Shown here: in pieces, positions 11,056-25,475 of the stretch
How the letters are laid out: the number at the start of each line of letters is the position of its first letter
Position numbering within the stretch: the first letter of the stretch is position 1
Assembly (NCBI RefSeq): GCF_024347595.1
Contig: NZ_AP025507.1
Span: forward strand, 248,001-312,000
Origin: Vibrio pomeroyi
GTDB lineage: Bacteria; Pseudomonadota; Gammaproteobacteria; Enterobacterales; Vibrionaceae
DNA length: 64,000 nt
Reading direction: 5' to 3'
Position numbers and translations under genes: made by a program
Notes under the pieces: model-generated
The model's database searches: none
Told to the model about the DNA's origin: nothing
Seen by the model: the letters and a program-made list of their open reading frames with translations, nothing else

Positions 11056-11248
11056 AATAATTTCCTAAGATTAAGCAAGCCAATTCGGATTGGGGCGCGG
11101 AGTATAGCACAAGGGTTTACGTGAACCGAAATTTATCTTAAAAATCACCAATGGGATGAAATCTAACCTAAACTGTCTATCAATCCACCTTCAGTCGCTC
11201 GCGAATCAATCCGGAGCTGAACATTCAAACAAATCACAAGGACCCGCG

Positions 11249-12058
11249 ATGACACACCTGAAACAAGCACTGATCTATAGCCTAGCCATTGGCTCTGTGT
11301 TTGCCACAACTTATGCGTCCAGTGAAGCATCCAATAACAATACACTGGCTAACAATCTGATCGTTGAATATGCAACGCCTCAAACTGATGAAGAAAAGCA
11401 GATCAAGCAAGAGATTGAGCTCAGTGGCGTCAATGACACCGTGATTGACCTATCGAATCAACTATTCATGTTCAAGCAGCCCTTGGTCATTCAATACGGT
11501 GGCGACGATGGCCCACTCTACGATCCACAAACCCATCAGGTGCTCATCCCATACGGTTTTTACGCCGAATCCCTTAATTACTTTGAGAAGAACCAATACG
11601 AAAAAGAGTACGGGAAATCGGCACAAACCGGGGCTGTCGATACCTTGCTACACACCCTACTTCACGAAGCAGGGCATGCTTATATCGAAGACCAAAAGAT
11701 TGCCATCTTGGGCAAAGAGGAAGATGCGGTCGACAACCTAGCAACCATCCTGCTGCTGAACTACGTGGAACACGGCGCTGATGCCGCGATCAGCGCGGCC
11801 GACATGTTTGCCTTCGAATCTGAAGACCGTCCTGAATATTATGATTTAGGTGAATACATCGATGAGCACAGCTTTGATCTGCAACGCTACTTCTCTACTC
11901 TGTGCTTGGTGTATGGCAGCGACCCTGAAGCCTATAAGAATTTACTCGATGAAGTGGAAAACGACTATTTGAAAGACAGAAAGGAGTTCTGCGTCGAGCA
12001 CTTTGATGTGATTACAGAGAATTGGCATCAGTATTTAAAAGATAGTGACGAAGCTTAA
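11249..12058 (+). CDS. DUF4344 metallopeptidase, exported
   Basis: Putative zinc peptidase of 269 residues secreted to the periplasm or membrane. The start ATG 11249 is chosen over an upstream in-frame codon at 11156 because AAGGA lies seven bases before it and it gives a signal peptide (ALIYSLAIGSVFATTYA). The zinc motif HEAGHAY is preceded by LLHTLL, and DAVDNLATILLL follows with acidic residues suited to the third ligand. The C-terminal part has two Cys (LCLVYG, EFCVEHFD) that could form a disulphide. The substrate is unknown. It stands alone. Confidence 0.82.
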   Translation: MTHLKQALIYSLAIGSVFATTYASSEASNNNTLANNLIVEYATPQTDEEKQIKQEIELSGVNDTVIDLSNQLFMFKQPLVIQYGGDDGPLYDPQTHQVLIPYGFYAESLNYFEKNQYEKEYGKSAQTGAVDTLLHTLLHEAGHAYIEDQKIAILGKEEDAVDNLATILLLNYVEHGADAAISAADMFAFESEDRPEYYDLGEYIDEHSFDLQRYFSTLCLVYGSDPEAYKNLLDEVENDYLKDRKEFCVEHFDVITENWHQYLKDSDEA

Positions 12059-12743: not shown

Positions 12744-12770
12744 TGATCGAACCCTAGTCACTGCCCGTAT
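12744..12770 (+). promoter_or_regulatory. ECF-sigma-type promoter before the Lon-domain gene (candidate)
   Basis: TGATCG, an 18-base spacer and TAT end 36 bases before the GTG start. It differs by one base in the -35 box from the promoter of the ECF sigma gene at 13479 and has the same spacing. It may put this gene in the same regulon. Confidence 0.45.
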
Positions 12771-12806
12771 ATCTCCTTGAATCACATCTGAACTAAGGAG
12801 TGCTAT

Positions 12807-13427
12807 GTGCCTAATACACCTAGGAAGACCACACGGACAAAAGCCGAAACAGAAACACCCGTAGAGTCTTCTCTAGAACTCGCTGTGTTTCCCCTTCCCG
12901 TCTTCCTGTTACCAGGAGGGAGACAGAGGTTGCGCATTTTCGAGCCTAAATACCTTGCGATGGTCGCACACGCAGCGCAGGGCGATGGCTTTATCATTGC
13001 CACTCAAGACAACGTAAAGTCAGAACATCTCAGCTCTTGGGGAACGAAAGTATCCATCGTCGACTTTAATATGTCTGATGATCAGATATTGGAGATCGAT
13101 GTGGAAGGTCAGCAGCTTGTGCAGCTTCACTCCTCTCATAGAGATACCGATAGCTTAATCAAAAGTAAATTCAGACCACTTCCCCATTGGCCAGTACTCG
13201 AATACGACGTACCTAACGTGTTTACAGCATTTTTGGTTCAACTGTTTCGCGACCACGATTCGATAAGAACCCTTTATCCCACTCCTGATTTCGAAAGCCC
13301 GCAATGGATTTGCGCGCGACTACTCGAAATGATGCCTATCCCTTTGGAAAAGAAAACAGAGTTCACCGAACCCGCTAGCTTTCCTTCTTTAGTTCCTTTT
13401 TTGAATCAAATCATTACGGGGCAATAA
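12807..13427 (+). CDS. stand-alone Lon substrate-binding-domain protein
   Basis: 206 residues that resemble only the N-terminal substrate-recognition domain of Lon protease (FPLPVFLLPGGRQRLRIFEPKYLAMV at about 29-54, then ILEIDVEGQQ). No ATPase or protease domain is present. The start is GTG 12807, supported by TAAGGAG six bases upstream; an ATG two bases earlier is out of frame. The N-terminal 20 residues are Thr/Lys-rich and probably disordered. Such proteins occur next to ECF sigma/ChrR loci and may present oxidised or damaged proteins for turnover; this role is inferred. Confidence 0.85.
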   Translation: MPNTPRKTTRTKAETETPVESSLELAVFPLPVFLLPGGRQRLRIFEPKYLAMVAHAAQGDGFIIATQDNVKSEHLSSWGTKVSIVDFNMSDDQILEIDVEGQQLVQLHSSHRDTDSLIKSKFRPLPHWPVLEYDVPNVFTAFLVQLFRDHDSIRTLYPTPDFESPQWICARLLEMMPIPLEKKTEFTEPASFPSLVPFLNQIITGQ

Positions 13428-13478
13428 GCACTTTTCTTCACTATAATTTTGTATAGTGGAAATTAATTTAAATTAAAG

Positions 13479-13505
13479 TGATCCCGGCCTTCAACCTTCA
13501 CGTAG
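13479..13505 (+). promoter_or_regulatory. ECF-sigma promoter of the sigma/anti-sigma operon
   Basis: TGATCC, an 18-base spacer and TAG lie 33 bases before the sigma gene start. R. sphaeroides RpoE promoters have the form TGATCC-N18-TA, so this is a probable autoregulated promoter. A weak AT hairpin (CACTATA/TATAGTG, 13439-13458) lies just upstream, after the Lon-domain gene. Confidence 0.75.
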
Positions 13506-13537
13506 TGCCACTCAAATTCGCATGATGGTTATTTACT

Positions 13538-14185
13538 ATGCAAGTCGAAAGTAGAAGTTCAGGGAAAGGCAAGGAGCATGTCATTATCCCAGACAAAAAA
13601 ACAACGACCGAATCCAAGGTACCAGCAGAGCTTTCAAGCTGGTTGATCTTGGTTGGTACAGACAGAGACAAGCAGGCATTTACCTGTTTGTTTAAGTTCT
13701 TTGCTCCCAAGATAAAGCGTTTTGGAATTAGCAAATTAGGCGGTGAGGCCGCTGCAAACGAGCTGGTTCAAGACACCATGACCAACGTTTGGAAGAAAGC
13801 CCACCTTTATAATGAAGACAAGGGCGCTGCAACGACTTGGGTCTACACCGTTATGCGAAACGCCGCTTTTGATATGTTGCGTAAAGTAAAAGCCAAAGCG
13901 GAACAAACAATCGCAGATGACATCTGGCCTATCGACGCAATGGTTGCTGAATCTCAAAGCGATGAATTACCGTTTGGCGATCATTTGATGAGCCGACACG
14001 TGATGACTCAAATAGAGAAGCTGCCTCTGGCTCAGAAAACCATTGTCAAAGGCGTTTATTTTCAAGAACTCTCTCAAGAGCAGCTTGCACAACAACTTGG
14101 CGTCCCGCTTGGAACCGTGAAATCACGTCTAAGACTCGCTTTAGCCAAACTCAAGGTTCACATGGGGGAACAAAGCCATGATTAA
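13538..14185 (+). CDS. ECF RNA polymerase sigma factor, RpoE/ChrR-partner type (ECF11-like)
   Basis: Directs RNA polymerase to stress promoters when freed from its anti-sigma factor. The 215 residues have sigma region 2 (ANELVQDTMTNVWKKA and WVYTVMRNAAFDMLRK, about 70-115) and region 4 (LSQEQLAQQLGVPLGTVKSR, about 180-200). The N-terminal 35 residues are an extra charged extension. Its last eight bases overlap the start of the ChrR-type gene, so the two are translated together. The partner and promoter match the singlet-oxygen-responsive system described in R. sphaeroides. Confidence 0.93.
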   Translation: MQVESRSSGKGKEHVIIPDKKTTTESKVPAELSSWLILVGTDRDKQAFTCLFKFFAPKIKRFGISKLGGEAAANELVQDTMTNVWKKAHLYNEDKGAATTWVYTVMRNAAFDMLRKVKAKAEQTIADDIWPIDAMVAESQSDELPFGDHLMSRHVMTQIEKLPLAQKTIVKGVYFQELSQEQLAQQLGVPLGTVKSRLRLALAKLKVHMGEQSHD

Positions 14186-14858
14186 ACATCACCCTAACGA
14201 AGCAATTTTGAAAGATTTTGTTGACGGCACGCTTGCTGACTCAGTGTCTCTCATTGTGTCGAGCCATGTAGAGCTATGTGAACACTGCCAAGAGAAAGTG
14301 AAACAGTTGACGGCCGAAGCGGCAAACAATGCCTTTGATAAAGAACCTGCATTCGCGAGCGAAGAATCAGACAGCTTTTCAATGGACGACATGGATTTCG
14401 ACTTTGATGCAATCGAGCAGATTACTGCTGATTTATCTCAGTCAGTGGAGGTTGAGCCAAGGGTAGAACAGGTTACCGTTGCAGATACCACGTTCACAAT
14501 CCCCCGCGCTCTGAATTCAGTGGCGAGAAAAGATTGGATGAACCTAGGCAAAATTTCACGAGCACGACTCGATTTCGATGACGAAGCACACCACACCAGT
14601 TTGCTGCACATCGATAAAGACGGGCAAGTGCCTTGCCACACTCACAAAGGCTTCGAGATCACGCTGCTTTTAGAAGGCAGTTTCGAAGACGAAATGGGCG
14701 TCTACAACAAAGGTGATTTCATCTGGTTGGATGGTAATCATACTCACCAACCTGCAACCAAAGAGGGTTGTGTGTGTTTGACCGTTTCAAGTGACGCGCT
14801 CTACTTCACAAAAGGTGTAAGTCAAATATTCAATCCACTAGGAAAATATATCTATTAA
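14178..14858 (+). CDS. chrR: ChrR-family zinc anti-sigma factor with cupin domain
   Basis: Holds the ECF sigma factor inactive until singlet oxygen or related oxidants appear. The 226 residues have an N-terminal zinc anti-sigma domain with ligands H5, H30, C34 and C37 (HVELCEHC). R. sphaeroides ChrR uses H6, H31, C35 and C38, an offset of exactly one. A linker rich in Asp/Glu follows, then a C-terminal cupin (about 125-215) with CHTHKGFEITLLLEG and GNHTHQPAT, likely metal-binding. Only the N-terminal part is needed to bind sigma in the known system; the cupin is needed to respond to the signal. Confidence 0.93.
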   Translation: MIKHHPNEAILKDFVDGTLADSVSLIVSSHVELCEHCQEKVKQLTAEAANNAFDKEPAFASEESDSFSMDDMDFDFDAIEQITADLSQSVEVEPRVEQVTVADTTFTIPRALNSVARKDWMNLGKISRARLDFDDEAHHTSLLHIDKDGQVPCHTHKGFEITLLLEGSFEDEMGVYNKGDFIWLDGNHTHQPATKEGCVCLTVSSDALYFTKGVSQIFNPLGKYIY

Positions 14859-14876
14859 CCCAGTTGCAGGCTATAA

Positions 14877-14909
14877 ATATACAGGATGGCATGAAGCTAC
14901 CCTGTATAT
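14877..14909. promoter_or_regulatory. 9-base inverted repeat in the chrR-DUF523 gap
   Basis: ATATACAGG and CCTGTATAT are separated by 15 bases. No T-run follows. It could be an operator or an RNA hairpin controlling read-through from the sigma operon into the photolyase genes. Confidence 0.45.
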
Positions 14910-15033
14910 CGTCCAAACATCTGAATAAAAACATCTACGGTGTAAAAATCAAAAACACACCCAGCTCTGTAAGTACGATTAGCAATGTTGAAATATAAGA
15001 AAGAGCTCAGAGCAAGAGCAAAGGAGTTGGCCA

Positions 15034-15981
15034 ATGGAAAAGAAAATTAAAATAGGTATCAGTGCATGTGTAGCTGGACACAAAGTACGATTCGATACAG
15101 GTCATAAACGCTCTCGTTTTTGTACAGACGACCTAGCAGATTACGTTGAATTGGAACCCGTTTGTCCAGAGATGGGCGTAGGTCTTCCAACTCCACGCCC
15201 AACCATTCGTCAAACAAGAATGCTGGACGACATTATCCACGTTTCTCGCCCAGACGGGTCTGGTGATGTGACCAATGAGTTAATCGAATTCGGTCAAAAC
15301 TATTCGAAGAACAATCAACACATCGCGGGTTTCATCGTGTGTCAGAAGAGCCCAACTTGTGGCATGGAGCGCGTGAAGGTGTATCACCATCATGGTCGTG
15401 GCTCTGAATCAACAGGTGTGGGTATGTTTACCCAGCAGATCATGGATGGTAATCCGCTGCTCCCAGTTGAAGAAAACGGTCGCCTTAACGACCCAATTCT
15501 GCGTGAGAACTTCATGACTCGAGTGTTCACTTACCAGAAGTGGCTAGACTTAGTAGACGAAGGCATTACCAAGCACAAGTTGATTCAATTCCACAGTGCT
15601 CACAAATACCTAGTGATGTGTCACCACGTAGAAGGTTATAAACGCCTTGGTAAGCTTTTAGCAGGAAACGAACTCGACATTAACGAGCTTGCAGACCAAT
15701 ACATCGAAGGTTTGATGACGGCGCTATCACATCACGCAAATCGCGGCAGTCACGCCAACACTCTGCAGCATTTACAAGGCTACTTTAAGAAGCAACTGAG
15801 CAGCGCTCACAAGCAAGAGCTTGCGAACCAAATTGCTTCATTCAGAGAGGGCGTTATTCCCCTGTTAGTGCCATTGACACTGATCAACCACTACTTGATG
15901 GAATATCCGAACGAGTACCTAGAATCACAGGTTTATCTCAACCCTCACCCTCAAGAACTTAAACTGAGATATGGATATTGA
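15034..15981 (+). CDS. DUF523-DUF1722 protein, RudS/YbgA type thiouridine desulfidase (probable)
   Basis: The 315 residues join a DUF523 (TudS-type) domain (about 5-150) to a DUF1722 domain (about 185-310; KLIQFHSAHKYLVMCHHVEGYKRLG). TudS is an iron-sulphur 2-thiouracil desulfidase, and fused DUF523-DUF1722 proteins called RudS were reported to remove sulphur from tRNA 4-thiouridine. Cysteines C12, C44 (VCPEMG) and C109 (PTCGM) are placed to hold the cluster; C30 and C103 are extra. AAAGGAG precedes ATG. It overlaps the photolyase gene by four bases. In E. coli ybgA also precedes phrB. Desulfidase activity here is inferred from family and context. Confidence 0.82.
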   Translation: MEKKIKIGISACVAGHKVRFDTGHKRSRFCTDDLADYVELEPVCPEMGVGLPTPRPTIRQTRMLDDIIHVSRPDGSGDVTNELIEFGQNYSKNNQHIAGFIVCQKSPTCGMERVKVYHHHGRGSESTGVGMFTQQIMDGNPLLPVEENGRLNDPILRENFMTRVFTYQKWLDLVDEGITKHKLIQFHSAHKYLVMCHHVEGYKRLGKLLAGNELDINELADQYIEGLMTALSHHANRGSHANTLQHLQGYFKKQLSSAHKQELANQIASFREGVIPLLVPLTLINHYLMEYPNEYLESQVYLNPHPQELKLRYGY

Positions 15982-17408
15982 GCGACATTCTATGGATACG
16001 ACGAGACCTGCGGATTCACGATAACCCAGCTCTCGTCTCTGCAGTTGAAAACGGCGTCTCTATCGCCGTTTTTATTTCAACTCCGCAGCAATGGCAACAA
16101 CATCACCTTGCTCCAATAAAAGCAGACTTCATTTACCGTCACCTCAAGCAGCTCGAATCGCAGCTCGCGGAATTCGGTATCACCCTACTGCACCTCAAAG
16201 CCACAGATTTTTACGACCAAGCCACAAAGCTTATCGACTTGTGCAAACAGCTCGATTCTCAGTCTATTTACGCCAATTCAGAACCGGAAGTGGATGAGCA
16301 AGCTCGCGACCAACAACTCATCTCACGCGGTGTGAACCTCCAAATCAGCGATTGCGACGTGATGCTGCCATTGGGTAGCGTACTTAACCAGCAAGGCGAG
16401 ATGTTCAAGGTATTCACTCCCTTCAAAAACGCTTGGTTAAAACAGGTTCAAGCTAAAGGCATCCAATGCAGCCATGCTCCAGTGATGCCAGCTCAAAGCC
16501 CTCGATACCAATGTTCAGAAACGCAGTTACCTGACAGCCTTTCTGCCTATCGACTTGCCGATGATTACGACTTCGACTTCCCTCGCGTTGATTCAAATCG
16601 TTGGCCAATGAGCGAAGATGTACTAAACAGCGTGATCCCTAATTTCTTGGCTAACAAAGTCAACGATTATGCACACCTGAGAGACATCCCTTCCGTCAAA
16701 GGCACCTCTGGCCTGTCACCTTACTTAACGATCGGTGCAGTGAGCCCAAGATGGTTAGCAATTCAATTGATTCAGCAACAACCAGATCTGCTGTTTGACT
16801 CGCAATTGCCTGCCTTTTCTTGGCTTAATGAATTGATTTGGCGAGATTTTTATAAGCATTTAATGTTTCATCATCCTAAACTGGTTAAAGGCGCTAACTT
16901 TCAACAAAAGTACAATGGCTTAGATTGGTATCAGGATCACCCAAGCTTCAAAGCTTGGTGTGAAGGGAGAACCGGCTATCCGTTAGTTGATGCTGCTATG
17001 CGCCAATTGGTTGATACAGGTTGGATGCACAACAGGCTAAGAATGGTGGTGGCGAGCTTCCTGACCAAACACCTGCTGATTGACTGGCGTTGGGGTGAGC
17101 GATTCTTTATGACGCACCTTATCGATGGCGATTTCAGCGCTAACAACGGTGGTTGGCAGTGGGCTTCAAGTACTGGCTGTGATGCTCAACCTTACTTTCG
17201 AATTTTCAATCCAATCACCCAGAGTGAAAAGTTTGATCCGAAAGGAATTTTTATTCGTAAGTACATACCAGAGCTGCAAAATATTCCAGACAAGCATGTG
17301 CATTTCCCACATGATTACATTGCAAAAAATGGAATTAACAGCGAATACTGGCAACCCATCGTTGAACACAAAGAAGCACGATTGAGAGCCTTAGCCTTTT
17401 TCAAATAA
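15978..17408 (+). CDS. phrB: deoxyribodipyrimidine (CPD) photolyase
   Basis: Uses blue light to split UV-made pyrimidine dimers. The 476 residues have the N-terminal antenna domain (ILWIRRDLRIHDNPAL) and the FAD domain with GTSGLSPYLTIGAVSPR, WLNELIWRDFYKH, GYPLVDAAMRQL, TGWMHNRLRMV and WQWASSTGCDAQPYFRIFNP, all class I signatures. The only in-frame start is TTG at 15978, inside the stop of the gene before (TTGA), so translation is coupled and probably moderate. It sits in the ECF/ChrR locus, as photolyase does in the R. sphaeroides RpoE regulon. Confidence 0.95.
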   Translation: MSDILWIRRDLRIHDNPALVSAVENGVSIAVFISTPQQWQQHHLAPIKADFIYRHLKQLESQLAEFGITLLHLKATDFYDQATKLIDLCKQLDSQSIYANSEPEVDEQARDQQLISRGVNLQISDCDVMLPLGSVLNQQGEMFKVFTPFKNAWLKQVQAKGIQCSHAPVMPAQSPRYQCSETQLPDSLSAYRLADDYDFDFPRVDSNRWPMSEDVLNSVIPNFLANKVNDYAHLRDIPSVKGTSGLSPYLTIGAVSPRWLAIQLIQQQPDLLFDSQLPAFSWLNELIWRDFYKHLMFHHPKLVKGANFQQKYNGLDWYQDHPSFKAWCEGRTGYPLVDAAMRQLVDTGWMHNRLRMVVASFLTKHLLIDWRWGERFFMTHLIDGDFSANNGGWQWASSTGCDAQPYFRIFNPITQSEKFDPKGIFIRKYIPELQNIPDKHVHFPHDYIAKNGINSEYWQPIVEHKEARLRALAFFK

Positions 17409-17422
17409 TTAGAGTGAACATT

Positions 17423-17854
17423 ATGGATAACTCTCTATGGCTTGATAACTTTCTCAACATGTATCGAGAACTCGGAACCGACAATTTCGACGTGCTAAAG
17501 ACGGTTTATCACCCTGATATCGAATTCCAAGATCCGCTGCATCATGTCAGCGGAATTGCTGCGCTCACTCATTACTTCGAGAACATCTACACGCAAGTGA
17601 CCAGCTGTGATTTCCACATCGAGCACGTTTTTGAAGCCAATGGCGAAGCCGCGGTGTATTGGACGATGCAATTCGCTCACAAGCAGTTGAACGGTCAAAA
17701 GCCTATCGAAGTTCAAGGCCACAGCCACCTGAAGATGCTCGATGACCAAGTGATCTATCACAGAGACTATCTCGACGTCGGCTCTATGTTGTATGAGCAC
17801 ATTCCTGTATTGGGCTGCGCAATCAAATCCATCAAGAAAAGAGCGAGCCGATAA
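17423..17854 (+). CDS. NTF2-like (SnoaL-type) protein
   Basis: 143 residues with the cone-shaped NTF2 pattern: YRELGTDNFDVLKTVYHPDIEFQDPLHHVSG at the start, then strands EAAVYWTMQF, QGHSHLKML and VIYHRDYLDV. No catalytic residues can be assigned. A GTG at 17414 is also in frame, but ATG 17423 is preferred. Its stop overlaps the next ATG by one base. In this position it accompanies the SDR, FAD oxidoreductase, DUF1365 and Cfa genes, a set often found together, so a role in lipid modification is likely but unproven. Confidence 0.82.
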   Translation: MDNSLWLDNFLNMYRELGTDNFDVLKTVYHPDIEFQDPLHHVSGIAALTHYFENIYTQVTSCDFHIEHVFEANGEAAVYWTMQFAHKQLNGQKPIEVQGHSHLKMLDDQVIYHRDYLDVGSMLYEHIPVLGCAIKSIKKRASR

Positions 17855-18585
17855 TGCGTATTATGATCACAGGCGCGACTTCAGGTATCGGCCAATCACT
17901 GACTCTCGATTATGCTCAACAAGGGCATCAGGTGATTGCTTGTGGCCGCAACCCAGACAAGCTACAAGCCTTAGTCGATTCCCACGAGACGGATTTATCC
18001 CACTCATCGATAGAGCCACTTTGTTTTGATCTAACCGACCACCACAACTTCCCTGAGCTAGACCAAGACCAGCCGCTCGACCTGTTGATTTTGAACGCGG
18101 GGGATTGTGAGTACATCGATGACCCAATGAATTTTGATGCCGAGCTTTTCGAGCGCGTCATCAACATTAACTTAATCTCCATTGGCTACGCCTTAAAAGC
18201 GTGGCTCAAAAATATCAAACCCGGCGGTCGCTTGGTTTTGGTAAGCTCCAGCGCCAGCTTTTTGCCTTTGCCTAGAGCCGAGGCTTATGGCGCTTCAAAG
18301 GCGGCACTCACGTATTTAGGAAGAACACTTTCGGTTGATTTGGCTCAGCACGATATCCATGTCTCAATTGTGCACCCTGGCTTCGTAGAAACGCCATTAA
18401 CCGAGCGAAATACGTTCTCTATGCCTATGATTATTAGTAGTGAGGCCGCAACTCAGCGAATCGTAACCGGTATTGCTCAAGGAAAGAGTGAGATCGATTT
18501 CCCAAGACGATTCATCATGTTGATGAAGCTATTAAGAATGCTTCCAACTCCAGTTTGGCAAAAACTCGCTTCAAGGATGGTATAA
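17854..18585 (+). CDS. short-chain dehydrogenase/reductase
   Basis: NAD(P)-dependent oxidoreductase of 243 residues. It has the cofactor motif TGATSGIGQ (about 6-14), NAG (DLLILNAGD) at about 85, the catalytic serine in VSSSAS and YGASK with Tyr and Lys at about 150. The C-terminal 30 residues are basic and hydrophobic (RRFIMLMKLLRMLP), which may bring it to the membrane. ATG overlaps the previous stop (TAATG). Substrate unknown; the neighbours suggest a lipid. Confidence 0.9.
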   Translation: MRIMITGATSGIGQSLTLDYAQQGHQVIACGRNPDKLQALVDSHETDLSHSSIEPLCFDLTDHHNFPELDQDQPLDLLILNAGDCEYIDDPMNFDAELFERVININLISIGYALKAWLKNIKPGGRLVLVSSSASFLPLPRAEAYGASKAALTYLGRTLSVDLAQHDIHVSIVHPGFVETPLTERNTFSMPMIISSEAATQRIVTGIAQGKSEIDFPRRFIMLMKLLRMLPTPVWQKLASRMV

Positions 18586-18587
18586 CA

Positions 18588-19859
18588 ATGAAGAAAATCG
18601 CCATTATTGGTTCAGGTATCTCTGGACTCACTTGCGCGCACATATTAGATAAGCACCACGACGTAACAGTATTCGAAAAAAATGATTACGTTGGGGGGCA
18701 CACCGCCACCGTTGATATTGAACATCAAGGCTCGGCGTTTTCTATCGACACTGGCTTTATCGTATTCAACGATCGAACGTATCCAAATTTCAATCAACTC
18801 CTCGAACAACTAGGCGTCGAAAGGCAACCCACCGAGATGAGTTTCAGCGTTCACAACACAACCACCAAGTTTGAATACAACGGCCACAGCATTAATTCTC
18901 TGTTTGCTCAACGAAGTAATATCTTCAAACCGCAGTTCTGGTCGTTGGTTTCTGACATTCTTAAGTTCAACAAATTGTGTAAAGCACAATTCGAAAGCAA
19001 TGTGTTTACTCCCGACGTTACCCTTGGCAGTTTCTTGCGTAATAACCAGTTTTCTGACTTCTTTAGCCAGCACTACATTCTGCCGATGGGCGCCGCTATT
19101 TGGTCGACAAGCTTAGAAGAGATGGAAGAGTTTGAGCTTAAGTTCTTTATTCAGTTTTTCTACAACCACGGCCTGCTCGACATTGCTAACCGCCCGCAGT
19201 GGTATGTGATCCCTAAAGGGTCTCGCTCTTATGTTGAGATCATCCTTTCGCGTTTGAACAAACCAGTCGCGTTGAATACATCAATCAAGCAGGTCACCCG
19301 CCAAGAGTCTGGCATTACCATCGAGTTTGAAGATGGCGTTACGCAAGACTTCGATGAAGTGATATTTGCTTGTCACTCAGACCAAGCCCTACGCCTACTT
19401 GGTGACGCGACCGAACATGAGCAGCAGGTACTGGGCGAGATCCCTTACAGCCGCAATGAAGTGGTTCTGCACACAGACACCAACCTGCTGCCAGACAGAA
19501 AGCTAGCGTGGGCGAGCTGGAACTACATGCTCGACGGCAACAGCCAACGACCAGCTTGTGTGACGTACAACATGAACATCCTGCAAGGTATCGAAACCCA
19601 AGACACATTCTGTGTGACCTTGAATCAGAGTGAAGCGATTGACCCAGAGAAAATCATTCGAAGCTTTGTGTATCACCACCCTGTTCTGAATTCGAACACG
19701 GTGAACGCACAGCAACAACGTGAAAAAATCTGCGGCCAAAATAAGACTCACTTTGCAGGCGCCTACTGGTACAACGGATTCCATGAAGATGGCGTCCACA
19801 GCGCACTCGATGTGACAAAACGCTTCGGTCTAGATTTGAGTACGAGTTCAGCACTATGA
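18588..19859 (+). CDS. FAD-dependent amine-oxidase-like oxidoreductase
   Basis: 423 residues with an N-terminal FAD motif IAIIGSGISGLTCAHIL followed by FEKNDYVGGHTATV, typical of flavin amine oxidases and desaturases. The distal part has ACHSDQALRLLG and FAGAYWYNGFHEDGVHSAL. This family is usually encoded beside DUF1365 and Cfa, as here, and has been linked to fatty-acyl modification. The start is ATG 18588, with AAGGAT before it; a longer frame from 18555 lies within the previous gene. It overlaps DUF1365 by four bases (ATGA). Confidence 0.9.
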   Translation: MKKIAIIGSGISGLTCAHILDKHHDVTVFEKNDYVGGHTATVDIEHQGSAFSIDTGFIVFNDRTYPNFNQLLEQLGVERQPTEMSFSVHNTTTKFEYNGHSINSLFAQRSNIFKPQFWSLVSDILKFNKLCKAQFESNVFTPDVTLGSFLRNNQFSDFFSQHYILPMGAAIWSTSLEEMEEFELKFFIQFFYNHGLLDIANRPQWYVIPKGSRSYVEIILSRLNKPVALNTSIKQVTRQESGITIEFEDGVTQDFDEVIFACHSDQALRLLGDATEHEQQVLGEIPYSRNEVVLHTDTNLLPDRKLAWASWNYMLDGNSQRPACVTYNMNILQGIETQDTFCVTLNQSEAIDPEKIIRSFVYHHPVLNSNTVNAQQQREKICGQNKTHFAGAYWYNGFHEDGVHSALDVTKRFGLDLSTSSAL

Positions 19860-20662
19860 ACACGCACACCATGACATCCGACATGGGGATCGCATCCGAA
19901 AAGAGTGAAGAGCTCAGCGGGATCTATTGGGGTAACGTAAGACACCGCCGTTTTGGCGACATCACCCACGAGTTCAGTTACCAGCTTTATATGATGGGGT
20001 TGGATCTTGATGAACTGCCCCAAACCACAGTGCGCAGTGCGCTGTTCGGAACTCGATGGTATAACCCGATTCGCTTTGTCGAATCGGATTATCTCGCTGA
20101 AAAAAAAGAAAATGTCTCAACGGATGAACCTAAATCACTCAAGCAACGTATAGCTTCCAAAGTGCAACAACTTGGTGGGGTTTGGTCTGATTCAAACCGT
20201 GTGACGATGCTGGCTCAGTGCCGCTGTCTAGGTATCTATTTTAGCCCAATCAACTGCTTCTTCTGTTATGACGAAACAGGCGATTGCAAATATATGTTGG
20301 CTGAAGTGAGTAACACGCCTTGGCGAGAAAGACACTACTACCTCATCGACATGCACCAAGAGCTGAAGGTAAAGAAAGAGTTTCACGTTTCGCCGTTCAT
20401 GGACTTAAACATGACCTATTTTTGGAAGATTAAGCCACCAGCGAAACGAACACTCGTTCACATCGAAAGCCGCAGAAGCGACAAAATTTTCGATGCGACA
20501 CTGGCACTGACTAAGCAGTCTGTGACCAAGAAAAACATTAGACGAACGGTATTCAAGATTCCGGCAATGACGATAAAAGTCGTGATGGGAATCTATTATC
20601 AGGCTCTCAAATTATTCCTGAAAAAAGTACCATTCGTGGCGCACCCAGACTCAACGTCTTAG
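19856..20662 (+). CDS. DUF1365 protein
   Basis: 268 residues of the DUF1365 family, whose activity is not firmly known. Seen here: GNVRHRRFGDITHEFSYQLY near the start, then LAQCRCLGIYFSPINCFFCYD and VSNTPWRERHYYL in the middle, and KKEFHVSPFMDLNMTYFW further on. ATG at 19856 overlaps the previous stop. The conserved pairing with the FAD oxidoreductase and Cfa points to a role in making modified membrane fatty acids. Confidence 0.9.
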   Translation: MNTHTMTSDMGIASEKSEELSGIYWGNVRHRRFGDITHEFSYQLYMMGLDLDELPQTTVRSALFGTRWYNPIRFVESDYLAEKKENVSTDEPKSLKQRIASKVQQLGGVWSDSNRVTMLAQCRCLGIYFSPINCFFCYDETGDCKYMLAEVSNTPWRERHYYLIDMHQELKVKKEFHVSPFMDLNMTYFWKIKPPAKRTLVHIESRRSDKIFDATLALTKQSVTKKNIRRTVFKIPAMTIKVVMGIYYQALKLFLKKVPFVAHPDSTS

Positions 20663-20778
20663 CGCTTCACAGTAACTAAATAGTACAGCTCAATTAGCGA
20701 CTCGGGTGAGCTAAAACCAAAGAACAGCACCCGACTTTAGTTGGCAAAAAGTTAGAATGAATTCTCAGCGAGGTTTAC

Positions 20779-22059
20779 ATGGAACAGCTTGCAAAACAAA
20801 ACAACAACATTGAACAACAAGCTAATGCCGTTGCTGTTTCAAGCAACTGTAAATATCGAGCTTTAATCTTCAAGGTGTTAGAACGCCTGCAATTCGCAAC
20901 GCTTGAAATCATTGAGCGCGATCAGCATTCAGTGTTTGGTGATCGAGAAGCAGACTTGAAAGGTCGAATCGTGATTCATGATGCGACCTTTTTTAGAGAT
21001 GTTGTCATCAACGGCAGTATTGGTGCATCCGAAGCCTACATTGATGGTAAATGGACTAGCCCGAATCTGACTCGTGTTATCCAAATCATGGCGCGCAACC
21101 AAGCGCAACTAGACGAGTTGGACGACAAGACTCAGTGGATATCTCGCATAAAAAATCTGCTACTGCGCCGTAAGAATGCCAATACCGAGCAAGGATCTAA
21201 ACGCAACATTCTCGCTCACTACGACATCGGAAACGAACTATACGAGCGATTCCTAGACAGCTCAATGCAATACTCATCGGCTATCTACAGCAAAGACGCG
21301 TTAACCCTTTCTAAAGCCCAACAAAACAAGATGAAAACCATCTGTGAGCGTTTAGAACTTTCAGAATCGGATAGCGTGGTTGAGATAGGCACTGGCTGGG
21401 GCGGCTTAGCGATATTTATGGCTCAACATTATGGCTGCCACGTGACGACCACTACCATTTCAGACGCTCAGCACGAGCTTGCTGAACAACGCGTGAAAGC
21501 GCTTGGTTTAACCGACAAAATCACCCTGCTTAAAGAGGATTATCGTAACCTCACTGGTGAGTATGACAAGTTGGTCTCTATTGAGATGATCGAAGCGGTG
21601 GGACACGAATATCTGCAAACCTTCTTTGAGAAGTGTTCTTCGTTACTGAAACCTTCAGGCAAGATGTTGATTCAAGCCATCACCATTGCTGACAGTCGTT
21701 ATGAGAAGTACCGTAAAGGTGTCGACTTTATTCAGAAGTACATCTTCCCGGGTGGCTGTTTACCTTCCGTTTCAGTCATGACCCAACATCTTGCGACCAG
21801 CACTGACCTTGTGGTTCAAGAAGTTGACGACATCGGCCTGCACTATGCTCGCACACTGAACGACTGGAATGTTGCCTTTGAAAATAGTTGGGAAGAGCTA
21901 GAGTCTCTGGGTTATTCAGAAGAGTTTAAGCGCCTGTGGATCTTCTACTTCTGCTACTGTGAAGGCGCATTCTTAGAACGCGTGATAAGCACTCACCATG
22001 TTGTAGCCAGAAAACCTCGTTACTTTGGAGCAAAAGATGAAACGGTTTTGGATTATTAA
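20779..22059 (+). CDS. cfa: cyclopropane-fatty-acyl-phospholipid synthase
   Basis: Uses S-adenosylmethionine to add a methylene group across double bonds of membrane phospholipid acyl chains. The 426 residues have the family segments ILAHYDIGNELYERFLD and MQYSSAIY (about 145-170), the SAM motif VVEIGTGWGGLAIFMA (about 198-213), and SIEMIEAVGHEY. A homologue of this class is in the R. sphaeroides RpoE regulon. It starts after a 116-base gap, so an extra promoter is possible, though I see no TGATCC there. The next gene overlaps its end by 23 bases. Confidence 0.95.
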   Translation: MEQLAKQNNNIEQQANAVAVSSNCKYRALIFKVLERLQFATLEIIERDQHSVFGDREADLKGRIVIHDATFFRDVVINGSIGASEAYIDGKWTSPNLTRVIQIMARNQAQLDELDDKTQWISRIKNLLLRRKNANTEQGSKRNILAHYDIGNELYERFLDSSMQYSSAIYSKDALTLSKAQQNKMKTICERLELSESDSVVEIGTGWGGLAIFMAQHYGCHVTTTTISDAQHELAEQRVKALGLTDKITLLKEDYRNLTGEYDKLVSIEMIEAVGHEYLQTFFEKCSSLLKPSGKMLIQAITIADSRYEKYRKGVDFIQKYIFPGGCLPSVSVMTQHLATSTDLVVQEVDDIGLHYARTLNDWNVAFENSWEELESLGYSEEFKRLWIFYFCYCEGAFLERVISTHHVVARKPRYFGAKDETVLDY

Positions 22060-22561
22060 TCTCGTTCTGTTTCAAGCGACCTGGGTTTGCAGTGCATTTT
22101 TTACCGCGCAAGCCACGTTCATCGCGCCACTGATTGTGGCCGTGCACTTCGTGCTCTCCCCAACCCGCAATCGCGATCTGAAAATACTCTGTTTACTTCC
22201 ATTGGGGCTATTACTCGATAGCCTCATGCTCCACTTCGGCGTGTTTGCCGTCGATTCTGAAATTGCCAATCAATCATGGTTTCCTGTGTGGCTCATCTGC
22301 CTATGGATCATGTTTTTGATTAGCTTCAATCACAGCCTTAATTGGCTTTTAAAATGCTCGAAAGTGATCTTGTTCGCCATAGGGTTCGTAGCAGGTACTA
22401 GTAGTTATTGGGGAGGCATCAAAGCAGGCGCCCTTCTTACTACTTGGCCAGATGCATCGGTAGTTGCTGCCCTTGCAATGAGTTGGGGGATTTTGTTGCC
22501 CTTACTGGTGGCCGCCTACTCCAACTTAGTACAACCTGAAATGGCAAGCACAACGAGGTGA
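22037..22561 (+). CDS. DUF2878 membrane protein
   Basis: 174 residues, almost all hydrophobic, with about five or six membrane helices (for example FWIINLVLFQATWVCSAFF and WFPVWLICLWIMFLISF). Function unknown. The start ATG 22037 is preferred over TTG 22025 because GGAG lies six bases before it. It overlaps the end of cfa, so it is translationally coupled to it and probably works with the lipid-modifying enzymes in the inner membrane. Confidence 0.85.
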   Translation: MKRFWIINLVLFQATWVCSAFFTAQATFIAPLIVAVHFVLSPTRNRDLKILCLLPLGLLLDSLMLHFGVFAVDSEIANQSWFPVWLICLWIMFLISFNHSLNWLLKCSKVILFAIGFVAGTSSYWGGIKAGALLTTWPDASVVAALAMSWGILLPLLVAAYSNLVQPEMASTTR

Positions 22562-22564
22562 CTT

Positions 22565-23188
22565 ATGGCTTATTCACGCAACCCTGCACAAGCGTTCAAA
22601 TCAGAGAGCGGCACTAGTCGCGTTGGTGCACTATTAAACTTATATACTCAAACTACTCATACGCAGACCGCTCATTCACAGACAAAGAGCAAACTCTTCG
22701 GCTTCATCACTCTATCTTTAATCTTTGCCGCGCTGATATTCACAGCAAGCGCGAAAGCCTCTGCGGTCGATGACTTAAACAAACGCGGCCAAGGCGAAAT
22801 GAGCTATTTGTTTTGGACGCTCTACTCTGCTGAGTTCTACACCACACCAACCAACTCTGAACGGGCACTCAAGCTTGAATATTACCGCGCTATCGACAGC
22901 AAAGACTTAGTCGATGCTACCGAAGACCAATGGAACAAACTTGGCTACTCAAATAACAGCATTCAGCGTTGGTTGAAGCCTTTGTACGCGATGTGGCCAA
23001 ACGTAGAAGTAGGAAGCACGCTCACCATTCGTGTCGCTGAAGACAATGTAAGCCGCTTTTACTTTGATGAGCAACCTATCGGGGTAATCCAAGACAAACA
23101 GTTCGGCGAGGCCTTCTTAGCTATCTGGTTATCTGAAAACACATCCGAACCCGGTCTTCGCAAACAACTATTAGGTCTAAATAAATGA
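22565..23188 (+). CDS. chalcone-isomerase-like exported protein
   Basis: 207 residues with an N-terminal membrane or signal segment (LFGFITLSLIFAALIFTASAKA, about 44-66) after an unusually long 43-residue Thr/Gln-rich tail. The rest resembles the bacterial chalcone-isomerase-like family (YLFWTLYSAEFYTT, LKLEYYRAIDSKDLVDAT, IQRWLKPLYAMWPNVEVGS), which probably bind fatty acids rather than flavonoids. The true start may be internal, but no better ATG with a ribosome site is clear. It overlaps the next gene by four bases. Confidence 0.82.
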   Translation: MAYSRNPAQAFKSESGTSRVGALLNLYTQTTHTQTAHSQTKSKLFGFITLSLIFAALIFTASAKASAVDDLNKRGQGEMSYLFWTLYSAEFYTTPTNSERALKLEYYRAIDSKDLVDATEDQWNKLGYSNNSIQRWLKPLYAMWPNVEVGSTLTIRVAEDNVSRFYFDEQPIGVIQDKQFGEAFLAIWLSENTSEPGLRKQLLGLNK

Positions 23189-23727
23189 GTCCAAAAACAA
23201 AAATAATAAAATACGCTCTAGCACTGCTTTCTCTCACTTGGCTAGCGGGTTGTGGCTCTGCAAGTTTAGATAACCACGTAGACACCACTCCCGAGCTCAA
23301 ACTTGAAACTTTCTTCAATGGCGAGTTAATGGCCTACGGCATCGTGCTCGACCGTTCTGGCAATTTACTGCGCCGCTTCGACGCCAAGCTTATCGCCACA
23401 TGGGACGGTGACAACGGAGAGATAAAAGAGTGGTTCTCTTTCGCCGATGGTGAGCGTTCGACCCGAGTTTGGAACCTGATAAAAACCGGCGAAAACACCT
23501 ATTCCGGTACTGCCAATGATGTAGTAGGTACCGCTTACGGCGAGACCCAAGGTTCGGCTCTGTATTGGAAATACGACTTAGAAATAGAAGTCGACGGCAG
23601 CACTTATGAAGTCGTCTTAGATGATTGGATGTTCTTAATGGATGAGAAACGATTGTTCAATAAAACCGAGATGTCTAAATTCGGTTTTAAGGTCGGAGAG
23701 GTTATCTTGTACATCGAGAAAATCTGA
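23185..23727 (+). CDS. DUF3833 lipoprotein
   Basis: 180 residues with a lipoprotein signal (LALLSLTWLAGC, lipid on the cysteine at about 23). The mature part has ETFFNGELMAYGIVLDRSGNLLRRF, typical of DUF3833. The residue after the cysteine is glycine, not aspartate, so sorting to the outer membrane is expected. It is the last gene of the locus; a strong terminator follows. Its function is unknown; neighbours suggest a lipid-handling role in the envelope. Confidence 0.88.
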   Translation: MSPKTKIIKYALALLSLTWLAGCGSASLDNHVDTTPELKLETFFNGELMAYGIVLDRSGNLLRRFDAKLIATWDGDNGEIKEWFSFADGERSTRVWNLIKTGENTYSGTANDVVGTAYGETQGSALYWKYDLEIEVDGSTYEVVLDDWMFLMDEKRLFNKTEMSKFGFKVGEVILYIEKI

Positions 23728-23769
23728 TGATTGGGCCTTAGCTTCACATGATTTGGTTAGCCTTTAATT

Positions 23770-23809
23770 ACAGCCCACGACGACATGTTGTGGGCTGTTT
23801 TGTTTGTTC
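23770..23809 (+). terminator. terminator of the ECF/ChrR-linked locus
   Basis: A perfect 9-base stem ACAGCCCAC/GTGGGCTGT with an 11-base loop is followed by TTTTGTTTGTT. Confidence 0.9.
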
Positions 23810-25128: not shown

Positions 25129-25235
25129 TGCTTAGACAGAGCGACAAGGAAATAGAGTCACGAGACAATTATTTGTGAGGGTGAGCATGAAAGTGTGCGA
25201 CAATGCTCGGCGTAAATTCATATTCAAGGTTTATT

Positions 25236-25475
25236 ATGAAACTTCTAGTTCGTAACCTATCGCGCTCTACTTCTGAGCAAGACATCCGTGTGCTGTTTTC
25301 TGAGTTTGGCTCAGTAAAAGAGTGCAGCCTAGTGTTAGACCAAGAAACTGGCGACTCAAAAGGCTTTGCTTTTGTTGAAATGCCAGAGCACGAAGAAGCT
25401 AAAGCGGCACTAAACAAGCTGAACATGACTAAGCTTGGCAAAAACACGATTCGTGTAAAAGTAGCGAACTCTTAA
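25236..25475 (+). CDS. RRM-domain RNA-binding protein
   Basis: 79 residues forming one RNA-recognition motif: RNP2 is LLVRNLS (3-9) and RNP1 is KGFAFVEM (about 43-50). ATG 25236 is chosen because the fold starts there; an in-frame upstream codon at 25203 adds 11 unlikely residues. Small bacterial RRM proteins of this kind are often cold-induced or bind mRNA; the specific role is unknown. An exceptionally long terminator hairpin follows. Confidence 0.93.
   Translation: MKLLVRNLSRSTSEQDIRVLFSEFGSVKECSLVLDQETGDSKGFAFVEMPEHEEAKAALNKLNMTKLGKNTIRVKVANS

Follow-up and report, generated by a model that had tools for sequence, protein, structure and literature searches.

We describe a locus of Vibrio pomeroyi (assembly GCF_024347595.1) that is very probably an extracytoplasmic function (ECF) sigma factor/ChrR photo-oxidative stress locus with a furan-lipid operon. 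It lies within a 64,000-nucleotide stretch of contig NZ_AP025507.1 (forward-strand positions 248,001 to 312,000), which we call the window. Three consecutive genes (18588-22059) are assigned, by family, gene order and active-site signature, to UfaD, UfaO and UfaM, enzymes proven in Rhodobacter sphaeroides and Rhodopseudomonas palustris, and we are confident, though short of certain, that this trio encodes a furan fatty acid pathway and that the locus is an RpoE-ChrR regulon. An earlier note on this DNA, made from the sequence alone, had looked to the last four genes for new lipid chemistry. Our analysis suggests that the chemistry of the operon is probably not new; it is less mysterious, and the regulation richer, than that note supposed. 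The genome comprises 5.66 Mb in two contigs, the window being on C2 (2.02 Mb). Its closest relatives by protein sequence are vibrios, at 91% (a cluster named V. cyclitrophicus) and 98% (a cluster named V. pomeroyi), which we take to be the Splendidus clade.

Organization of the locus

The 13 genes of the locus lie on the + strand (12807-23727), and most overlap or sit a few bases apart. Larger gaps separate the Lon-N gene from the sigma gene (110 nt), chrR from rudS (175 nt) and the DUF1365 gene from the CMAS gene (116 nt). The features are as follows.

12744-12769, +, ECF-type promoter motif TGATC-N17-CGTAT, upstream of the Lon-N gene
12807-13427, +, Lon N-terminal (LON_substr_bdg) domain protein, Lon-N (Pfam/NCBIfam)
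13479-13504, +, ECF-type promoter motif TGATCC-N16-CGTA (equal to TGATC-N17-CGTA) of sigma-chrR, predicted autoregulation
13538-14185, +, ECF sigma factor, RpoE/RpoE2 of the ChrR group (NF009178, 371 against a cut-off of 301)
14178-14858, +, ChrR anti-sigma factor (TIGR02451, 186.7 bits against a cut-off of 124.5)
14877-14909, +, imperfect 14-nt dyad, ATATACAGGATGGC / GCTACCCTGTATAT, in the chrR-rudS gap, without a T tract
15034-15981, +, RudS-type tRNA 4-thiouridine desulfidase, a TudS+DUF1722 fusion (by families and by its cysteines, given below)
15978-17408, +, deoxyribodipyrimidine photolyase, PhrB-like (NF007955, 544 against 506)
17234-17259, +, intragenic ECF-type promoter motif in the photolyase codons for FDPKGIFIRK, 154 nt 5' of the SnoaL-like gene
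17414-17854, +, SnoaL/NTF2-like protein, first gene of a conserved 8-gene lipid operon
17854-18585, +, short-chain dehydrogenase (SDR), possible RSP1087 counterpart
about 18588-19859, +, FAD oxidoreductase, candidate UfaD-type acyl desaturase (order as RPA2571/RSP1091)
19856-20662, +, DUF1365 protein, candidate UfaO-type furan-forming oxygenase (by family; PMC7380195)
20779-22059, +, CMAS-family methylase ('Cfa'), candidate UfaM type (by active-site signature)
about 22037-22561, +, DUF2878, predicted inner-membrane protein with six hydrophobic segments
22565-23188, +, chalcone-isomerase-like (CHI-like) protein, Chalcone_3, with a hydrophobic, export-signal-like segment
23185-23727, +, DUF3833, predicted lipoprotein (lipobox LAGC, C23)
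23770-23798, +, intrinsic-terminator-like stem closing the operon, the longest of the region

Between 12500 and 24500 there was no Rfam match at E<=0.1. Every gene named in the earlier note is present on the + strand with Pfam or NCBIfam support, and the ChrR ligands it gave, H5, H30, C34 and C37, fall exactly at those positions. The start that it proposed, 12744, is the first base of an ECF-type motif, and its proposed end fits the terminator-like stem. Its list lacked the Lon-N gene at the front.

A probable furan fatty acid pathway

Three enzymes of R. sphaeroides, UfaM (RSP2144), UfaD (RSP1091) and UfaO (RSP1090, a DUF1365 protein), together turn cis-vaccenate chains into a methyl-furan acid, with O2 as the oxygen source; in R. 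palustris RPA2571-2570-2569 are ufaD-ufaO-ufaM (PMC7380195). The window holds all three families in the R. palustris order. We compared it with a class set of 143 gammaproteobacterial genomes, each listed one from a different family, of which 39 have DUF1365; 38 DUF1365 loci were fetched outside the V. pomeroyi genome, and 35 of them show the order FAD oxidoreductase-DUF1365-CMAS. Of the remaining three, L175 gave no FAD hit, L178 is a contig of 6.2 kb, and L199 lacks CMAS, its genome carrying a CMAS gene beside MFS_2-DUF3833-CHI elsewhere (L209). A second set, the best 80 of 579 confirmed loci, is mostly alpha- and betaproteobacterial; in these 80 named loci, to which all figures for this best-80 set refer, the order occurs in 68.

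The active site of the methylase carries the assignment further. In Escherichia coli cyclopropane fatty acid synthase (CFA), C139, H240 and H266 hold the bicarbonate base of cyclopropane synthesis. The window protein has S, A and Q at these sites and keeps E239 and Y317; it therefore lacks the Cfa residue set C139, E239, H266, Y317, for which it reads S, E, Q, Y. DUF1365-linked CMAS proteins were read from 35 class loci (L175, L178 and L199 gave none) and from 73 other Vibrio loci, these being the ones fetched after DUF1365 was found in 74 of 80 Vibrio genomes. All 108 have Gln at the H266 site, with Ala (105) or Ser (3) at the H240 site; E239 and Y317 are kept throughout, and the C139 site is S, A or C. 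Together with 69 from the best-80 set, Gln stands at the H266 site in 177 of 177 linked proteins read. The patterns used to fetch the best-80 set did not span these positions, and its CMAS proteins have Q and A in 69/69 loci with DUF1365 and in 11/11 without DUF1365 in the stretch. Second CMAS paralogues in the gammaproteobacterial loci keep both His (8/8). With the base lost, the methylated cation would shed its proton elsewhere, giving a methyl-alkene, which is the UfaM product. Expressed in E. coli, the UfaM of a Halomonas trio of this kind yielded a methylated intermediate, which appeared only with ufaM (PMC12089945).

It is most improbable that the gene encodes a conventional cyclopropane fatty acid synthase acting to harden the membrane during light stress: although the protein aligns with E. 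coli CFA over a long stretch (203 bits), relatives are annotated as Cfa (VC1122 in the V. cholerae blue-light paper, PMC5241685; cfa in the Shewanella RpoE2 paper, PMC4336711) and cyclic acids also occurred in E. coli expressing Halomonas ufaM (PMC12089945), it scores below the NCBIfam Cfa cut-off (283.8 against 400), both His are replaced in all 108 linked gammaproteobacterial proteins and in 80/80 of the best-80 set, and the gene stands beside ufaD- and ufaO-type genes in 35/38 class loci. The candidate function 'Cfa makes cyclopropane acids' was rejected on signature and gene order.

The second CMAS paralogue occurs in L174, L179, L180, L188, L191, L203, L204 and L207, often adjoining DUF2878, and reads E-H-M/V and H where the UfaM type has A and Q. 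It may be a FufM-like methylase for dimethyl-furan acids.

Several considerations weigh against the assignment of pathway and regulon. The V. pomeroyi pathway is predicted here from its genes, and the identity of its enzymes with the tested ones follows from gene order and family, not from sequence comparison with RSP2144 or RPA2569. For the Halomonas enzyme, the ufaM and cfa strains alike were reported to contain cyclic acids (PMC12089945). Proteomics of V. campbellii CAIM 519 reportedly gave no broad light response (PMC9040609). Apart from these points, no credible solved relative was found by sequence for DUF1365. The literature that we covered, which leaves out most subscription papers, contained no assignment of furan-acid synthesis to a Vibrio operon.

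Two layouts of the operon within Vibrio

ChrR exceeds its cut-off in 5 of the 143 class genomes, and in all five DUF1365 lies within 6 kb. Among the 73 other Vibrio loci, 23 have the lipid operon behind sigma-chrR as in the window (type A), and 50 have it as a stand-alone operon (type B). The order sigma-chrR-rudS-phr-SnoaL-SDR-ufaD-ufaO-ufaM is found in 23/23 type-A loci, with Lon-N in front in 18; DUF2878, CHI and DUF3833 are all present in 21, and of these three only DUF2878 is seen in L279 and L280. In type B the fetched stretch is free of sigma, chrR, rudS and phr genes at every locus (50/50), SnoaL-SDR-ufaD-ufaO-ufaM stands in 49/50, and all three tail genes follow in 47/50 (exceptions L226, L249 and L277). 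Over both types the three tail genes are at the locus in 68/73. L170, from another family of the order, has the front half of type A, its DUF2878-CHI-DUF3833 genes being on another contig (L208).

The earlier note had named conserved clustering in relatives, beforehand, as a test of its proposal, and that clustering was found, the sigma-to-CMAS order being kept in 23 of the 73 loci. Its proposal of a single ECF/ChrR light-stress programme holds in that RudS, photolyase and membrane-lipid genes are joined here; the wiring differs across the genus, as the 50 type-B loci show.

A promoter motif inside the photolyase gene

In the other type-A loci, TGATC-N17-CGTA stands upstream of the sigma gene in 23/23 and upstream of Lon-N in 17 of the 18 with that gene (one more with N16). 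Upstream of SnoaL it is present in 23/23 type-A loci, inside phr, and in 35/50 type-B loci, or 43/50 when N16-18 is allowed. As type-B controls, ufaD and ufaO have it in 0/50 each and ufaM in 2/50 (3 with N16-18). An own ECF promoter before rudS was sought and rejected, the best fuzzy score being 7/11 in the window and the motif occurring in 0/23 relatives. Having no motif of its own, rudS must rely on read-through past the dyad at 14877-14909, a point against the regulon assignment; the dyad is possibly an attenuator or processing site. The match-to-match gap between chrR and rudS is 143-179 nt in the nine closest type-A relatives and in L279, and 38-60 nt in 9/23.

The intragenic motif falls in the codons for FDPxGxxIR in 25/25 photolyases (the window, L170 and the 23 others). 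All of them use TTT or TAT, GAT and CGT at the motif, with variation in the codons between. Among columns at least 88% conserved, the motif Asp is the only all-GAT column of 15, the motif Arg the only all-CGT column of 15 (the next best CGT column reaches 0.39) and the motif Phe the only all-TTT column of 16 Phe columns. The 25 proteins form 12 clusters at 85% identity, and CGT in all 12 has a chance of 1e-8, given a CGT usage of 0.22 and clusters taken as independent. For comparison, 30 control photolyase loci were taken from 35 type-B genomes searched on both strands; these are the best other photolyases, probably of a different clade, and they have the motif in 0/30, GAT in 14/30 and CGT in 10/27.

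These observations bear on whether the motif is merely a by-product of the conserved protein sequence FDPxGxxIRK. The motif does lie wholly in conserved codons, and FDxxGxF(I/V)R-like residues occur in most of the 30 controls. Such a by-product is improbable, as the F, D and R codons are fixed across 12 clusters while synonymous sites between them vary, and as none of the controls, probably of another clade, has the motif. We therefore infer that a predicted sigma-type promoter inside the photolyase gene drives the lipid operon in type A. No promoter inside a photolyase gene was found in the literature, in which no search was aimed at intragenic promoters by name.

Support for sigma-type control also comes from genomes without the regulator. 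ChrR was searched in all 50 type-B genomes (35 + 15). It exceeds the cut-off in 46, of which 43 carry the motif when N16-18 is allowed. The four genomes without a full ChrR (G186, G196 and G201 with no match, G209 with partial ones below the cut-off) have it in 0/4 (Fisher p=1.5e-4; for N17 alone, 35/46 against 0/4, p=0.006). These four genomes are 99-100% complete, and all four loci keep MerR-like sites. Counts refer to genomes, not to independent losses. Within one genus, the absence of the regulator thus goes with the absence of its promoter.

The promoter assignment has its own weak points. Three ChrR-bearing type-B genomes (G148, G149 and G154), among the four with the lowest ChrR scores, lack the motif, and eight type-B genomes carry it only as N16 or N18. 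Across the genome the motif is barely enriched (33 matches against 25 to the reversed control), so the case for the promoters is one of position and conservation. Of the 33 places, 30 were read, and the motif stands outside long ORFs with a longer ORF at most 320 nt on for Lon-N, L147, L152 and L164, the last with a 95-aa ORF downstream. L147 (C1:1693260-1696286) has a gene that resembles cryptochromes and photolyases in its N-terminal sequence; it starts 34 nt after TGATC-N17-CGTAA, and might fit the expectation for a ChrR-controlled cry gene. L152 (C1:2683932-2686958) has TGATC-N17-CGTAA 120 nt before the start of a gene for a lipoprotein-like product of 186 aa.

MerR-like sites, TTGTAYAA or TTRTACAA, lie upstream of SnoaL in 42/50 type-B loci, 37 of them with two or more. 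Their sequence is similar to that of the T(G/A)TACA and TGTACA operators used by PplR1, a LitR-type regulator of Pseudomonas, where light induces phrB and ufaM (PMC9758184). In the window no TTGTACAA-like LitR/MerR operator was found at 12.5-24 kb, and MerR-like sites are absent upstream of the sigma, rudS, SnoaL, FAD oxidoreductase and CMAS genes in the other type-A vibrios (0/23). Since type B has both MerR-like and ECF sites and type A no MerR-like ones, type B looks dually controlled and type A, including the window, looks sigma-only.

The three tail genes

The operon ends with DUF2878, a CHI-like gene and DUF3833. DUF3833 is found in 21 of the 143 class genomes, 19 of which have DUF1365 (5.7 expected, p=5e-11), within 10 kb in 16 of the 19. 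A Chalcone_3 gene lies within 500 bp of DUF3833 in 12/21 and 1.4 kb off in one more, by hand count. A lipobox was read in 80 of 86 DUF3833 proteins, and the residue after its Cys is never Asp. The lack of Asp there favours the outer membrane. Six upstream proteins were tested and have no hydrophobic segment, in contrast to the membrane, exported and lipoprotein predictions for the tail.

A transporter family seems to take the place of DUF2878 elsewhere. In the 69 loci of the best-80 set with DUF1365, an MFS gene is nearby in 39 and DUF2878 in none, MFS_2 often standing at DUF2878's place; in the class set MFS_2 is at 10/38 loci and DUF2878 at 11/38, never both (P=0.018). In Tranquillimonas rosea, sigma-chrR is divergent from ufaD-ufaO-MFS_2 (401 aa)-DUF3833 (182 aa)-SDR, with UfaM beside a photolyase elsewhere. 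The R. sphaeroides genes are arranged likewise: RSP1092-1093 are rpoE-chrR, RSP1091-1090 are followed by RSP1089 (GPH symporter, 402 aa), RSP1088 (186 aa) and RSP1087 (SDR), and RSP2143-2144 are phrA-ufaM (PMC7380195, PMC7074977). By this synteny RSP1088 would be DUF3833 and RSP1089 MFS_2.

Single deletions of RSP1087, RSP1088 and RSP1089 had no detectable fatty acid effect and left the furan acids intact (PMC7380195). Because the RSP1088 and RSP1089 deletions left these acids unchanged, the tail probably acts after furan synthesis. DUF3833 is thus a poor place to seek a lipid-modifying enzyme, and the expectation of new chemistry in the last four genes finds no support on this point, nor in the match of the FAD-DUF1365-CMAS order to ufaD-ufaO-ufaM.

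What the tail does can be stated only tentatively. It may handle the furan lipids, most likely moving or placing them in the envelope, a proposal to which we give rather less than an even chance. Somewhat more speculative is a dedicated relay, in which DUF2878 (elsewhere an MFS_2/GPH-type protein), the CHI-like protein and DUF3833 might shuttle furan phospholipids or acyl chains outward, from inner membrane to outer, or return spent ones. If the relay were true, singlet oxygen would be quenched where it first strikes, and there would be lipid trafficking specific to one antioxidant acyl chain. Three observations sit uneasily with these proposals. DUF3833 was not seen at the locus in 23/38 class loci and is therefore not obligatory, DUF2878 occurs without DUF1365 in 7/23 genomes, and RSP1088 is equated with DUF3833 by gene order, not by its sequence.

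Envelope or porin homeostasis, or the clearance of oxidised lipids, with no carriage of furan lipids, is an alternative to which we give the same chance as to furan-lipid handling. The DUF2878 genomes without DUF1365 favour it, as does the V. cholerae VC1123 (DUF2878) deletion, in which ompU transcripts rose and ompT fell (PMC12971978). This porin shift is compatible with an envelope role, without being specific to one, and could also follow from altered envelope lipids. The near-confinement of DUF3833 to DUF1365 genomes (19/21) points instead to the lipid itself.

That the tail encodes further enzymes of furan-acid synthesis or ring modification has little probability. The three genes do accompany the operon in 68/73 other Vibrio loci and described functions were not found for them, but UfaM, UfaD and UfaO sufficed in R. 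sphaeroides (PMC7380195) and the predicted locations of the tail lie away from the six upstream proteins. The published RSP1087-1089 deletions led us to reject it (PMC7380195).

A relationship between any of the three tail proteins and four neighbouring membrane proteins of alphaproteobacteria was also tried and rejected (hhalign probabilities <1%), and no credible solved relative was found by sequence for DUF3833 or CHI-like. In the literature covered, which excludes most subscription papers, no function was found for DUF3833, DUF2878 or CHI-like, VC1123 being the only one with a published mutant.

Sensor, RudS and neighbouring genes

The ChrR protein has an HxxxCxxC plus N-terminal His zinc site and a cupin HxHxxxE motif (HTHKGFE from residue 154). 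Judged by this zinc anti-sigma factor with its cupin, the motif before the sigma gene and the motif at the target operon, the locus is very probably an RpoE-ChrR regulon. Activation by singlet oxygen or blue light has been shown for relatives (PMC5241685, PMC11976125, PMC5507510). A second protein of the same genome has two ChrR-like cupin domains (PF12973 twice, in a 222-aa frame; C2:1994188-1994808). On an Ensifer adhaerens plasmid (L284), a ChrR locus combines the same sensor with a different arrangement, DUF1295, a His-type CMAS, DUF2177, DUF2147 and DUF1365, with the FAD oxidoreductase on the other side of sigma.

The RudS-type protein has the cluster cysteines C12, C44 and C109, with CPE at 44 and SPTC at 106, where Thr replaces the second Ser of the TudS SPSC. 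With its TudS-DUF1722 fusion, three Cys and the catalytic Glu and Ser, it is by sequence a member of the RudS family, whose desulfidase activity was shown elsewhere; rudS genes in light-responsive operons with a photolyase are already published (PMC11417400).

Outside the locus, the window encodes a DUF4344 putative metallopeptidase upstream (11156-12058) and a short single-RRM RNA-binding protein downstream (25203-25475).

Comparison with known systems

The R. sphaeroides RpoE-ChrR regulon shares sigma/ChrR, photolyase, UfaD, UfaO, UfaM, SDR and, by synteny, DUF3833 with the window. Here these genes form one + strand array that includes RudS, SnoaL-like, DUF2878 and CHI-like genes; UfaM is inside the operon, there is no MFS_2 transporter at the locus, and the intragenic promoter motif is present. 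Relative to the known UfaM-UfaD-UfaO pathway (PMC7380195; Halomonas UfaM, PMC12089945), which ChrR governs in R. sphaeroides, the window shows these three families in the R. palustris order together with extra tail genes, and its product is predicted from the genes.

The Shewanella oneidensis RpoE2-ChrR system (SO_1986-1985, SO_1987, SO_3386-3374) has the same targets and promoter form, tested there by induced expression. TGATC...CGTA promoters put three targets under RpoE2, namely its own operon, the Lon-domain gene SO_1987 and SO_3386 (ybgA)-phrB-cfa (PMC4336711). Its target operon stands apart from the sigma operon, with a promoter before ybgA, the rudS position, whereas rudS in the window has no motif of its own. 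In V. cholerae, much of the response to blue light runs through ChrR (VC2301) and its sigma factor (VC2302), and blue light induces VC1122 (PMC5241685). Like the window, that genome has a sigma/ChrR pair and, next to its DUF2878 gene VC1123, a putative CFA gene, VC1122 (PMC5241685, PMC12971978). By gene numbering the V. cholerae layout (MerR VCA0056, VC1118) is of type B, and VC1123 is listed in a MerR-family (PhrR) regulon, while the window is of type A with no MerR-like sites at the locus. The Pseudomonas LitR/PplR light operon (phrB, SDR, FAD oxidoreductase, ufaM) holds the same lipid and repair genes under MerR-family control (PMC9758184), for which the sites are absent at the window and present in most type-B vibrios. 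PSPTO_1043 of P. syringae binds upstream of phrB-PSPTO_1114, which is induced when PSPTO_1043 is overexpressed (PMC5507510). A core regulon was proposed by Dufour in 2008, as cited in PMC5507510 and PMC4336711.

Proposed mechanism and implications

By analogy with other bacteria, ChrR would keep the sigma factor bound, to be freed by singlet oxygen or a related oxidant. The sigma factor would then read three promoters: that of Lon-N, that of sigma-chrR with read-through into rudS-phr, and the one inside phr that would drive the 8-gene lipid operon. UfaM would methylate unsaturated phospholipid acyl chains, UfaD desaturate the product, and UfaO insert O2 and close the furan ring, yielding furan fatty acids that could scavenge singlet oxygen. 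Meanwhile RudS would strip 4-thiouridine from tRNA and the photolyase repair DNA. The tail, with DUF2878 in the inner membrane, the CHI-like protein exported and DUF3833 a lipoprotein, would act after synthesis.

To conclude, we predict that light-stressed vibrios produce furan fatty acids, as R. sphaeroides does, and that 'cfa' genes in such operons are furan-pathway methylases recognisable by one residue. Within one genus the operon appears to have been rewired between a sigma-linked form, in which a repair gene harbours a conserved second promoter motif, and a stand-alone form that carries sites of both the sigma type and the MerR-like type. For three families of unknown function the search narrows to one testable question, the fate of furan lipids once they are made.

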